Part shown: in pieces, positions 27,335 through 32,491 of the stretch
Layout: every line of letters starts with the position of its first letter
Numbering within the stretch: position 1 is the first letter of the stretch
NCBI GenBank assembly: GCA_021785195.1
Contig: JAJYGC010000005.1
Location: forward strand, 1 to 64,000
Length of the DNA stretch: 64,000 nucleotides
Direction: 5' to 3'
Origin: Nitrospirota bacterium
GTDB taxonomy: Bacteria; Nitrospirota; Leptospirillia; Leptospirillales; Leptospirillaceae
Program-made: the position numbers and the translations under genes
The notes under the pieces: model-generated
What the model saw: the letters and a program-made list of their open reading frames with translations, nothing else
Database searches by the model: none
Told to the model about the DNA's origin: nothing

Positions 27335-27733
27335 TCTCCCCATTCGGTCCTGTTCGTTGCCGGCCCAGTTTGCCCCGTGGCCGGAAACGAACGGACCACC
27401 AAAAAGGAATCCTTTCTGCTGCAATGGATCTTTGGATTCGTGACCTCCCGGTTCTCCGGCCGTTTCCGTATGGTTTTGGCCGGGAAAAGGGTTTGCGTTG
27501 ACTTTTTTCCCTTCAGTTCCTATAATCCGGGTCATTTACTCTCAATTCCTCAGTGCAAGGCCGACTGGCTTTCTCCGTAAGTTTGCAAGGGAAGCCCGAC
27601 GAACGGTCGGCGAGCCCCGGTTTTTTCCGAAGGCGCGCATTGCCGCTCTCATACCGGACCGCATATCATAATTGGTTTGATTGCTATAGAGAACGCCCGC
27701 TTTGCATTTAGGAAAGTTGGGCATGGGGGGTGT

Positions 27734-28789
27734 ATGAGATCAGTGTCTTCAGAGTCCAGTCACGATAGAAATCAATCTAGCCGTTCGTTTTTCCAGTCTC
27801 TCCTCGGGTTGTTTACCCTGATCCTGTTTGGCTCGGTTTCCCTGGTGGCAGGAACCCGGAACGCGTTTGCCGCACCTGGCGGGTGGAGTTTCGGGGATAC
27901 CCTGGGAGTCAGCATTCCGTTCAATGGGCTGTCTTTTGTGAATCCCTCCGAAGGATGGATCACCGGAGCGTCCGGAGTCATCGTTCATACGTCCGATGCC
28001 GGCAAGACCTGGGTCGCCCAGACATCCGGGACGACGCACTGGTTGCAATCCGTTTCGTTTGTGGATTCTTCCCATGGATGGATTGCCGGAAACAATGGAA
28101 CCATCCTGACCACCAGTGATGGGGGACAGACCTGGACGCCCCAGGACTCCGGGGTCAAGTTCGACCTGTACACGGTGACATTCCTGAATGCCCAGGAAGG
28201 TTGGGTGGGAGGGTTTGCCGGAACGCTGCTCCACACGACAAATGGAGGAGAAACCTGGATCAGGGTTTCAACGGATTCCGCCCAATGGATCATGAATATT
28301 TTCTTCCTGAAATCGAATGCCAAATATGGTTGGGCCGTTGGCCAGGACGGCCTGGTGCTGGCGACCAAGGATGGTGGGCAGACCTGGGAGAAAAAGAACA
28401 ACTCCATCGCGAAGGACCTCTACGGTGTGTTCTTTACCGATGCGAACAATGGGTGGGCTGTCGGTACACATGGAGTCATCCAGTTTACCGCCAATGGTGG
28501 TGACACCTGGACAATCCAGAACGGATTGGGCCGTGGTCTGATGGGACGGGGTGTTGAGGGAGACGAGCGGGAACTGAATGATCTGCACGCGGTTGCTTTC
28601 CTGGATGCCAAGACAGGGTATGCCGTTGGTGTGATGGGAATGGTCTTGAAAACGGTGGATGGTGGAAACCACTGGACCTTTGTCAAGTCGGGAACGGGTC
28701 TGGACCTTTACAATGTCGCGTTTCCTGTTCCGGATGCCGGATGGATTGTTGGCGTTGGGGGGATGATCCTTCACAAGGGTAAAAGCTGA
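27734..28789 (+). CDS. Ycf48/Hcf136-like beta-propeller (repeated TxDGGxTW)
   Basis: Repeated GWxxGxxGxxLxTxDGGxTW units; signal peptide. Confidence 0.85.
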   Translation: MRSVSSESSHDRNQSSRSFFQSLLGLFTLILFGSVSLVAGTRNAFAAPGGWSFGDTLGVSIPFNGLSFVNPSEGWITGASGVIVHTSDAGKTWVAQTSGTTHWLQSVSFVDSSHGWIAGNNGTILTTSDGGQTWTPQDSGVKFDLYTVTFLNAQEGWVGGFAGTLLHTTNGGETWIRVSTDSAQWIMNIFFLKSNAKYGWAVGQDGLVLATKDGGQTWEKKNNSIAKDLYGVFFTDANNGWAVGTHGVIQFTANGGDTWTIQNGLGRGLMGRGVEGDERELNDLHAVAFLDAKTGYAVGVMGMVLKTVDGGNHWTFVKSGTGLDLYNVAFPVPDAGWIVGVGGMILHKGKS

Positions 28790-28827
28790 TCTCCCCGTTT
28801 GACGGATATTGACGGATCGTTTTTGAG

Positions 28828-28861
28828 GGGCTGGCTCACCCGTGTGGGGGCCAGCCCTTTT
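28828..28861 (+). terminator. Rho-independent terminator
   Basis: GGGCTGGC...GCCAGCCC then TTTT. Confidence 0.85.
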
Positions 28862-28910
28862 CGTCTTGAACTCCTGTTTCCCCCTCTTTCATTTGTGTTA
28901 GGATGAAAAT

Positions 28911-29537
28911 ATGATCAACTTTATTCCATTGACTTTTTTTGGTTTGATTGCCGTCGTGGCGATCGCGTTTTTCATGCACGGGTTTCTGAATCGTCAGAAG
29001 ATCTTTGCATTTTTTAAAGAGTTTGCCCAAAAACTGAACGGGGAATCGAGTCGGGACCATGTGGCCGCCTATCCTTGGCTCAAGGGGACCTGGAACGGTC
29101 GATCGGTCAAGGTCTTCTTCCATACATCGGAGAACCATACGGTCAGTGTTCTCAATCTAGTGGCGGAACTGGAATTCAGAAGCCCTCTCCGTTTTGTCCT
29201 GTTGCAGAAGGATGGATTTAGGAAACCCAAACCGGAACAGCTCCAGAAGCTGGAGGAGGAAGTGGGTCCGGTCGTGGAGGTGGAAGGATTTCCCTTCGAT
29301 GTTCGCTCTCCGGACAGCGCTTCGCTTCCCTCCCTCCTGAACAAGGCAGAGTTCAGGCAGGCCCTCTCCGATTTTTCCTCATACAACCAGATTCTGTTCT
29401 GGGACGGAAGAGTGATGGCTTCCCGCCAGTTTGACGGGGTACCCGAAGTGACTCCTGAACGGTTGTCCCATCTGGTCGAAGCGTTGTCACGTCTCGTCCG
29501 TCCCTTGGAGGCGGAGGCGGTGGTTGGAGTCTCCTGA
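28911..29537 (+). CDS. Membrane-anchored protein of unknown function
   Basis: N-terminal TM segment, conserved-looking ORF preceding the DsrE-like genes. Confidence 0.6.
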   Translation: MINFIPLTFFGLIAVVAIAFFMHGFLNRQKIFAFFKEFAQKLNGESSRDHVAAYPWLKGTWNGRSVKVFFHTSENHTVSVLNLVAELEFRSPLRFVLLQKDGFRKPKPEQLQKLEEEVGPVVEVEGFPFDVRSPDSASLPSLLNKAEFRQALSDFSSYNQILFWDGRVMASRQFDGVPEVTPERLSHLVEALSRLVRPLEAEAVVGVS

Positions 29538-29874
29538 GAAGCATGTCGGCATCCTTCTCCTGAAGAGTCCGGAATGGTCGGCCTTTCATTCGGTCGTAGA
29601 ACTGTCAGTGGCTCTTCTCGAAGAGGGTGCCCGGCTGACCCTCTTCATCATGGACGATGCAGTCCTGGGCCTGTACCCCCGTTCTTCCAGGGATCCCCAG
29701 AGCTTTCCCCTTCACCCGGTCATCGAAAAAGGCGGGACTGTCCTTGTCTGTCAGTCCACGGCTGAAACGAGGGGAATGCATTCAGACCGGCTTCCCGATG
29801 GGGTCCGCTTCGAAACCCAGGTCCAACTCGGGAGGCTGGCCGAAGAGGTCGATCTTTTCCTCCCATTTGTATAG
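29524..29874 (+). CDS. DsrE/TusD-like protein
   Basis: ILLLKSPEWSAFHSVVELSVALLEEGARLTLFIMDDAVLGL ... GTVLVCQSTAETRGM (Cys-x3-A-x2-RG motif). Confidence 0.65.
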   Translation: MESPEKHVGILLLKSPEWSAFHSVVELSVALLEEGARLTLFIMDDAVLGLYPRSSRDPQSFPLHPVIEKGGTVLVCQSTAETRGMHSDRLPDGVRFETQVQLGRLAEEVDLFLPFV

Positions 29875-29908
29875 CCCAAGTTCATGACACGTCATGTAAG
29901 GAAGATCC

Positions 29909-30292
29909 ATGTCCCGTTCGAAACGCGTTCTGTTCCTGCTTGAAGAGTCTCCGGCAGCCCATATAAGATTCTTTGAGGGAATGCGGATGGCATTGGGTTT
30001 TTCCGTCTCCCACCCTGGGCTGGAGGTCCTTCTGACAGGGAAGGCGGTCCGGGCTGTATCGACCTTCCGTCCATCGGAGATCGGAATGCCCCTGGAGCTT
30101 CTGGAGTTTTTTCCGCTGTTCCAGGATCTTGAAATCAGGACTTATGTCGATCAAGATGCCCTGGAGAGGATGGGGCTTTCCAGGGACCTTCCCTCCGTGT
30201 TCCACCTGATTGACGCGAAGGCCATTTCCGAAAAGGTTTGCAATGCGGACATCGTGATCGGCTTCAGTGCCATGAGCCGGGAAGGGGCCTGA
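29909..30292 (+). CDS. DsrF/TusC-like protein
   Basis: VLFLLEESPAAHIRFFEGMRMALGFSVSHPGLEVLLTGKAVRAV ... ADIVIGF. Confidence 0.6.
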   Translation: MSRSKRVLFLLEESPAAHIRFFEGMRMALGFSVSHPGLEVLLTGKAVRAVSTFRPSEIGMPLELLEFFPLFQDLEIRTYVDQDALERMGLSRDLPSVFHLIDAKAISEKVCNADIVIGFSAMSREGA

Positions 30293-30561
30293 TGGAAACC
30301 CTTTTTCTTGTGGGCAGTTCCCCACCCCCAGACTGGATTGTTCGGGCCTGGTCCGAATCGCGGGAGAAATCAGCTCCGGGATCGGTTTCTGTTTTACTTT
30401 GGGGCGAAGGGGTCTACAATCCTTCCGACCGTTTCCCGGGGGCGCTCCTCCTCTTGAGGGATGCCTTGGGTCGCGGGGTTCCTCCCGGAGACCGGGCACT
30501 CAGCGACAGGGAGGCCGCCAGGTGGATTTTGGGAGCCAAAAAGGTTATTTCCTGTTCCTGA
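30292..30561 (+). CDS. DsrH/TusB-like protein
   Basis: METLFLVGSSP...SVSVLLWGEGVYNPSD ... KKVISCS with C-terminal Cys. Confidence 0.55.
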   Translation: METLFLVGSSPPPDWIVRAWSESREKSAPGSVSVLLWGEGVYNPSDRFPGALLLLRDALGRGVPPGDRALSDREAARWILGAKKVISCS

Positions 30562-30770
30562 CCCTTGGTTAAAACGTCAGATGGGCCAAAGGGGAGTCTG
30601 GGCCGAAGGCCTGTATCGAGGGTTGCATCAAAAAGGTCTCTCGGGTGGTCCAGGCGGGTTCAGGTATATCCGGGCCACCCCCATCGTTCAGCTTTAACCC
30701 CATTTGCCCCGACCGTTTTGGACAATATGAAAGATCCCGCGCCTTTTCGCGCGTTTTCTTGGCAGGATGA

Positions 30771-31583
30771 ATGAGCCCCACTGCTCCCTCAAAAATTCGA
30801 AAAATGCTAGGAGTCGGCGGGATCCTGTTTCTCCTGTTCCTTGTCGTTCTCTCAATCCTGCCTGAACGGCTGACCGGATTGGAGCCCGTCCGACAGGACA
30901 CCCACTTGGTCCTGGCTCCCCTTGGCACCCCAGGACATTTGCTGGGATGTGATTTTTTGGGCCGGGACAACCTCTCCCGTCTCATTTCAGGATCGGTGGT
31001 TTCCCTCTTGATCGGTGTTTCCGTGGGGATCTTCTCGACGGTGCTGGGGGCGTTCTGGGGGCTTTTGTCCGGATATGTCGGAGGTGTCTTTGATTCGGTC
31101 CTGATGCGGCTTCTTGAAGTCTGGTACGCTCTTCCGGAGCTTCTGATCGCAACGATTCTCATGCTGGTACTGGGGCATGGCATCCTGTCCGTGGTGGTGG
31201 CCCTGAGCATCGGTGGATGGATGGGAGTGGCCCGGGTGGTGAGAGCCGAAACGCTCAAAATCCGGGAACAGTCCTACCTCGAAGCCGCACGATCATTGGG
31301 GGCGACACCCCTGAGGCTTCTCCTGAAGCACTTTGTTCCCAATCTCATTCCGGTTCTTTTTGTGCTCCTCCTTTTCCGGATCCCCGGGGGCATTCTGGGG
31401 GAGTCGACCCTGAGTTTTCTGGGGTTGGGCCTTTCACCGCCCGCCTCTAGCTGGGGAACCCTGGTGAATGAAGGCTGGAAAGCGCTTCCCCTGACCCCCT
31501 GGATCCTTGCTTTTCCGGCATTGATGATCATCCTGGCCCTCCTGGCGTTCCAGTGGGCGGGAGAGGAGTCCGGTCTCCGTTGA
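30771..31583 (+). CDS. ABC transporter permease (DppC-like)
   Basis: HLLGCDFLGRDNLSRLISG, EAARSLGATPLRLLLKHFVPNLIPVL, LGLSPPASSWGTLVNEG. Confidence 0.92.
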   Translation: MSPTAPSKIRKMLGVGGILFLLFLVVLSILPERLTGLEPVRQDTHLVLAPLGTPGHLLGCDFLGRDNLSRLISGSVVSLLIGVSVGIFSTVLGAFWGLLSGYVGGVFDSVLMRLLEVWYALPELLIATILMLVLGHGILSVVVALSIGGWMGVARVVRAETLKIREQSYLEAARSLGATPLRLLLKHFVPNLIPVLFVLLLFRIPGGILGESTLSFLGLGLSPPASSWGTLVNEGWKALPLTPWILAFPALMIILALLAFQWAGEESGLR

Positions 31584-32491
31584 AAAGGATCCTCCGTCGC
31601 CTGCTGGCCTCCATCCTTCTGATATGGGCCGTTTTCACGCTGACGTTCTTCCTGTCCCGCATGGCCCCCGGGAGTCCGTTCCAGGGAGAGCGCAAACTTC
31701 CACCGGAAATCATGAGGACTCTCCTGTCCTATTACCACCTGGACAGGCCTCTCTCGGTCCAGTACTGGGAAGTCCTGAAGAAAACCGCGAGTGGTGACTG
31801 GGGGAGTTCCTTCAAGAGCCCTGGAGTTTCGGTCTCCGAGGTCATTGGACGCGCCCTTCCAGTTTCGATGGTTCTGGGGGGGACGGCCTTCCTGGAATCC
31901 TTGTGCCTGGCATTGGGTCTGGGGCTTTGGATGGCACGCGCACGCGAGCCTGTCGCAAATGCGCTTCGAATGGTGTCCTCCATCTGGGTGGCCTTGCCAT
32001 CATTCCTGCTGGCCGCCCTCCTGATCGAAGTCTTTTCCATAAAACTCGGACTTTTTCCCCCCGCACTATGGACCGGATGGTCGTCGGTCGTCCTCCCTTC
32101 TCTGGCGATGGCAATCGCTCCTGCCGGGTATCTGGCCAGGATTTTTGCCACAAGCCTGTCCGAAACCTTCCGGAGTCCATTCTTTCTGGCGGCCAGGGGA
32201 AGGGGCATCTCTCGCTGGAGGCTTCTCGCCGGGCATGGTGTCCTGCCCTCCCTCAATGCGGTGGTTTCGATCCTGGGTCCCCTTTCAGCCTCATTCCTGA
32301 CAGGTTCCTTCGTAGTGGAGTCTTTATTTGCGATTCCGGGGATCGGGCGGGTTTTCGTATTGTCCGTCATGAACAGGGATTACCCCCTGATCATGGGGAC
32401 AACACTGGTCTATACCGCATTCCTGGTGGGAATGACCCTGGTGGGGGATGCGATCGGGGAGTGGATCGATCCCCGGGTCCGTGCGTTATGA
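31580..32491 (+). CDS. ABC transporter permease (DppB-like)
   Basis: LSRMAPGSPF, YHLDRPLSVQYWEVL, FVVESLFAIPGIGRVFVLSVMNRDYPLIMG; start uncertain. Confidence 0.9.
   Translation: MKRILRRLLASILLIWAVFTLTFFLSRMAPGSPFQGERKLPPEIMRTLLSYYHLDRPLSVQYWEVLKKTASGDWGSSFKSPGVSVSEVIGRALPVSMVLGGTAFLESLCLALGLGLWMARAREPVANALRMVSSIWVALPSFLLAALLIEVFSIKLGLFPPALWTGWSSVVLPSLAMAIAPAGYLARIFATSLSETFRSPFFLAARGRGISRWRLLAGHGVLPSLNAVVSILGPLSASFLTGSFVVESLFAIPGIGRVFVLSVMNRDYPLIMGTTLVYTAFLVGMTLVGDAIGEWIDPRVRAL

Follow-up and report, generated by a model that had tools for sequence, protein, structure and literature searches.

Gene content and organization of the locus

The window, i.e. the whole stretch of 64,000 nucleotides that was analyzed, carries four tightly packed plus-strand genes within positions 28911-30561, designated A, E, F and H and taken from the listing of open reading frames (ORF):

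28911..29537, plus strand: A, 208 aa, N-terminal transmembrane (TM) segment at approximately residues 4-22, C-terminal domain predicted to be cytoplasmic
29524..29874, plus strand: E, 116 aa, TTG start, DsrE/TusD/YchN-like, candidate persulfide Cys76 in VCQSTAETRG
29909..30292, plus strand: F, 127 aa, DsrF/TusC-like
30292..30561, plus strand: H, 89 aa, DsrH/TusB-like, motif GEGV...D..GRG

The overlaps are 14 nt between A and E and 1 nt between F and H. The ORF listing opens H at the TTG at 30238; the conserved start is the ATG at 30292. The first-pass annotation of this DNA had described three consecutive genes resembling DsrE/TusD, DsrF/TusC and DsrH/TusB, preceded by an overlapping TM protein. 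The ORFs and the profile homology agree with the former description, and the overlap of A with E, together with a hydropathy of 2.5 over residues 4-22 of A and flanking charges that follow the positive-inside pattern, bears out the latter.

In whole-genome searches across the phylum, F and A are found in 19 of the 21 Leptospirillaceae genomes, and in all 19 the genes A, E, F and H occur together and in that order; the two genomes lacking F and A are 69-70% complete. The dN/dS values against the sister genome (G082) are 0.07 for A, 0.04 for E, 0.05 for F and 0.16 for H (range 0.044-0.161). Given this co-occurrence and these ratios, the four are real genes under purifying selection and not chance reading frames.

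In Leptospirillaceae the locus usually runs on into a pair of permease genes, and upstream it is bounded by a putative terminator:

28825..28862, plus strand: terminator-like hairpin 3' of a Ycf48-like gene (RNA fold -26.6 kcal/mol, z -3.0)
30771..31583, plus strand: OppC/DppC-type ABC permease (BPD_transp_1 7.7e-33; best NCBIfam match Opp4C, below cut-off)
31553..32491, plus strand: OppB/DppB-type ABC permease (BPD_transp_1 8.2e-25), overlapping the preceding permease gene

The spacing was surveyed over 23 loci; the window is one of them, and some genomes are represented by a second copy. The gaps range from -14 to +4 nt between A and E, from 11 to 56 nt between E and F and from -4 to +5 nt between F and H. 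The gap between H and the first permease gene is -4 to +17 nt in most loci, 32-95 nt in four loci with an uncertain start codon, and 209 nt in the window. The two permease genes overlap in all loci (-4 to -40 nt). Since this spacing is kept across the 23 loci, the conserved unit is A-dsrE-dsrF-dsrH-oppC-oppB. The 209-nt spacer of the window (30562-30770) corresponds to 17 nt in the sister genome and has no match in the other loci compared.

The hairpin is trailed by T's and separates A from the Ycf48-like gene, a beta-propeller gene at 27677-28789 that is conserved upstream of A. In the other loci displayed, hairpin-like sequences were read by eye at the corresponding position. A therefore probably opens a new transcription unit, and the Ycf48-like gene is unlikely to be a member of the operon, because the terminator-like hairpin lies between them.

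A substrate-binding partner for the permeases was also sought. The three SBP_bac_5 loci read (C3 of the window's own genome, G019 at 61 kb, and G044) have permeases of their own and were set aside; a second SBP locus in G019 is without permeases. In the literature searched, we found no report of an operon combining DsrEFH, a membrane protein and a permease pair, nor any Leptospirillum-specific study of the trio.

Identity of the E, F and H subunits

The Pfam DsrE family matches F above the curated cut-off (1.9e-5) and E just under it (1.5e-4). The best PDB match of E is YchN (1jx7, 3.2e-6). When compared by hhalign with alignments of the E. coli Tus subunit and its Nitrospirota relatives, in which the E. 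coli sequence is the first row, the members are few and each E-value is that of a single comparison, E matches TusD at 1.7e-23, F matches TusC at 6.1e-26 and H matches TusB at 4.1e-8 (probability 95), the weakest of the three. The cross-comparisons made give 4.7e-5 for H against F, 1.7e-8 for E against F and 0.018 for F against E; H against the unrelated A gives 0.25. The assignments look subunit-specific, since the matching subunit scores better than the other subunit in each comparison made. By profile comparison, all three proteins are homologues of Tus subunits.

The assignment of H rests on intermediates and on predicted structure, because a direct PDB profile search gave nothing; a direct Pfam search of H was likewise without match. 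The Leptospirillaceae H profile finds, in a small search space, a protein of G182 (4.6e-7), which scores above the Pfam DsrH cut-off, with 30.3 bits, and matches TIGR03011 at 4.7e-11. The AF2 model of H (pLDDT 93.5) has TusBCD chains as its top Foldseek matches, with probability 1.00 and an E-value of only 0.015. A shared pattern, [QG][DE]GV...D..[AG]RG, completes this evidence. None of the proteins reaches the TIGR03010-03012 equivalog cut-offs; only F gives a match, to TIGR03010, at 17.1 bits against the required 94.15 (NCBIfam). With three adjacent DsrE-, DsrF- and DsrH-type homologues, the trio is a divergent version of the DsrEFH/TusBCD kind, well conserved within the Leptospirillaceae.

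A single invariant cysteine

Among the 19 orthologous sets, Cys76 (77) of E is the only invariant cysteine of the module. This residue, already pointed out in the first-pass annotation, aligns with the TusD/YchN cysteine, so that a conserved active-site cysteine is found in the E/TusD subunit in 19/19 cases. A and F mostly have no cysteine at all, and the cysteine positions of H shift between orthologues. The C-terminal cysteine of H, which had also been noted, occurs in only three of the 19 and was rejected as a functional residue. Because none of the subunits conserves a further cysteine, the idea of a repurposed redox complex finds no support: a single invariant cysteine is consistent with a carrier of one persulfide and argues against a dithiol redox device. 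In the DsrEFH type II complexes, the equivalent single Cys67 both receives sulfur from TusA and donates sulfur to it (PMC13293266).

Candidate sulfur partners in the Leptospirillaceae genomes

TusA is encoded in 20 of the 21 genomes, in one to four copies. In the window's own genome tusA lies outside the window, on other contigs. TusA1 is located approximately 2.5 kb from mnmA in this genome and in four others (three genera in all), TusA2 lies beside a DrsE_2-family gene, and TusA3 heads a second dsrE-dsrF(-dsrH) set in the sister genome, G010, G019 and G044. The DsrC/TusE family is found in 0/21 genomes, with a positive E. coli control, and YeeE/Sulf_transp in 0/21. DsrA gives no match over the cut-off in the 21 genomes; the weak matches are mostly frames of approximately 550-580 aa that resemble the assimilatory reductase, and the same search is weakly positive in E. 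coli. There is no CCG protein of HdrB size, the CCG domains being placed in frames of approximately 840-1200 or 430-730 aa and in one short fragment, which argues, indirectly, against sHdr. The window's own genome is 64% complete, and four family genomes that are 95-99% complete agree on these absences. The earlier statement that no dsrAB or tusA/E is visible in this DNA is incomplete in that TusA is present in the genome, outside the window.

The MnmA of the window's genome contains CC, CxxC and C motifs (CC-CxxC-C) and by these motifs is of the C-type, which a review separates from the D-type of E. coli (PMC11784392). At L096:5366-9526, a C-type mnmA is grouped with an exonuclease-like gene, an RNase III-like gene, tusA and a convergent 2Fe-2S ferredoxin gene, and this group is kept in several genera.

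A TusBCD-type relay for tRNA 2-thiouridine, in which sulfur would move from IscS to TusA, EFH and MnmA without TusE, is suggested by the proximity of TusA1 to mnmA, by the retention of the trio across the family and by the resemblance of E, F and H to TusD, C and B. Yet the genomes hold no DsrC/TusE protein, the MnmA type differs from that of E. coli and mnmA is not among the genes linked to the trio, and we regard such a relay as rather unlikely. A module for dissimilatory sulfur oxidation, or for sulfane-sulfur detoxification in cells living on pyrite, appears improbable. The usual role of DsrEFH complexes is in sulfur oxidation (PMC13293266), and a sulfur compound could be taken up through the permease pair, but the only DsrA matches are sub-threshold and look assimilatory, and DsrC, YeeE and HdrB-length CCG proteins are missing, also from the near-complete genomes. 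The combination of DsrA with DsrC that marks Dsr sulfur oxidation was detected in none of the 21 genomes, with DsrA judged at its cut-off.

Second sets of DsrE-like genes

In Leptospirillaceae there is also a second TusA-DsrE-DsrF(-DsrH-like) set, distinct from the first and marked by the motif SCAYGAQ (L152:6394-7600, L150:18376-19900, L168:724-2176, L169:6359-7495); none was found in the incomplete genome that contains the window. A related second set in another Nitrospirota family (L173:7214-11113) is found close to a ThiS - PALP (cysteine synthase-like) - ThiF group, which suggests an assimilatory sulfur-carrier link. A further cluster of DsrE-like, TusA-like and DrsE_2 genes is present in some family genomes only (L148:5250-7063, L149:7255-8816).

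Comparison with known systems

In other Nitrospirota, an E-F pair or the trio adjoins tusA (G011, G001, G020, G118 and G049), and in G049 the trio is directly beside tusA and also dsrE2. The Leptospirillaceae E groups with the E of G049 with a support of 0.86, in trees of short proteins whose deep branches are poorly supported (one E tree row, II_Lep_g5, consists of one residue and is to be disregarded).

The DsrEFH type II complexes occur in cable bacteria, Desulfobacterota and Nitrospirota, with subtype 1 mostly in Nitrospirota, and their genes adjoin tusA and yeeE, mostly together with reductive dsrAB (PMC13293266). The Leptospirillaceae trio shares with them the three-gene E-F-H set, the one conserved cysteine in E and the low identity to the canonical type. 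On the other hand, it has no adjacent tusA, yeeE or dsrAB, tusA being on other contigs in the window's own genome, and YeeE, DsrC and an above-cut-off DsrA are absent. Compared with the published description, the trio is probably related to type II.

The E. coli TusBCD complex resembles the trio in the homology of TusD, TusC and TusB to E, F and H, in gene order and in the active cysteine of TusD, which aligns with Cys76. It differs from the trio, which has low identity to it, no TusE, another MnmA type and scores below TIGR03010/03011/03012. YchN (PDB 1jx7) carries LCKTCTDGRG where E carries VCQSTAETRG; however, E. coli ychN has no F or H neighbour, whereas the Leptospirillaceae E is one of three adjacent subunits.

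Protein A and the membrane

Sequence searches of Pfam, NCBIfam and the PDB gave no credible match that would assign A to a known domain. With its AF2 model (pLDDT 84), Foldseek returns the mycobacterial TtfA (PDB 6t84) at an E-value of 1.1e-4, the next match being at 0.3. The likeness lies in the predicted fold (TM-score 0.52-0.59), the N-terminal TM segment and a body of approximately 200 aa. The identity, however, is only 11%, and the role of TtfA, which works with MmpL3 in mycolate transport (PMC6593404), is not expected for A. The TtfA complex of mycobacteria also includes a beta-propeller protein (PMC6593404), a parallel to the Ycf48-like gene that is perhaps a coincidence.

Elsewhere in the Nitrospirota, the 3.5-kb loci examined around relatives of A contain no E, F or H gene. 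In G130 the relative adjoins the genes of an NAD(P)H-hydrate enzyme (nnrD/E) and of TsaE (tsaE), and a similar housekeeping arrangement, around mutS, is seen in G118 and G182. A is thus an older Nitrospirota protein that was recruited, or merely placed, beside dsrEFH, and with no DsrE genes near its relatives it may be a passenger. The label of membrane partner given to A in the first-pass annotation is backed by conserved, translationally coupled synteny and undercut by these relatives; the membrane tethering that we infer is weakened by their housekeeping context. A membrane-tethered DsrEFH seems doubtful. In this reading the TtfA-fold A would dock the complex at an OppBC-type transporter, and a thiol or sulfane compound brought in from outside would provide the sulfur that is loaded as a persulfide on Cys76 and passed to TusA, in place of the YeeE-TusA-DsrEFH route that other bacteria use. 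A repurposed complex without sulfur chemistry, i.e. a membrane scaffold or sensor using the DsrE fold, is hardly credible: the operon partners are unusual and the subunits diverge from the TIGR equivalogs, but Cys76 and its motif stay invariant while every other cysteine drifts.

Proposed function and significance

The trio is best read, with reasonable though not high confidence, as a DsrEFH-type persulfide carrier with a single cysteine and a link to TusA, rewired in the Leptospirillaceae. E/F/H homology, the conserved active-site cysteine and the presence of TusA in the genome support the divergent sulfur-relay module proposed earlier. The three subunits would form a cytoplasmic DsrEFH/TusBCD-like complex, probably (EFH)2, with F and H as structural subunits without a conserved thiol. 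Sulfane sulfur would be carried as a persulfide on Cys76 of E and exchanged with TusA. In the Leptospirillaceae its genes no longer lie beside tusA and dsrE2, as those of its closest relative do. Because a TM-anchored protein and an OppBC-type permease pair are encoded in the same operon, the complex would probably work near the inner membrane and there pass on or buffer sulfur that moves between a TusA and an acceptor in biosynthesis. Dsr, sHdr or TusE would not be the recipients of its sulfur. Among the observations that count against this carrier, TusA is not encoded in the trio operon, and the TIGR cut-offs for TusB, TusC and TusD are not reached.

The DsrEFH genes serve as markers of sulfur oxidation. 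A conserved set in iron oxidizers shows that this marker can mislead, since none of the Dsr, sHdr and TusE acceptors tested was detected in these organisms. The question of which molecule receives sulfur from this Leptospirillaceae complex is thereby made testable.
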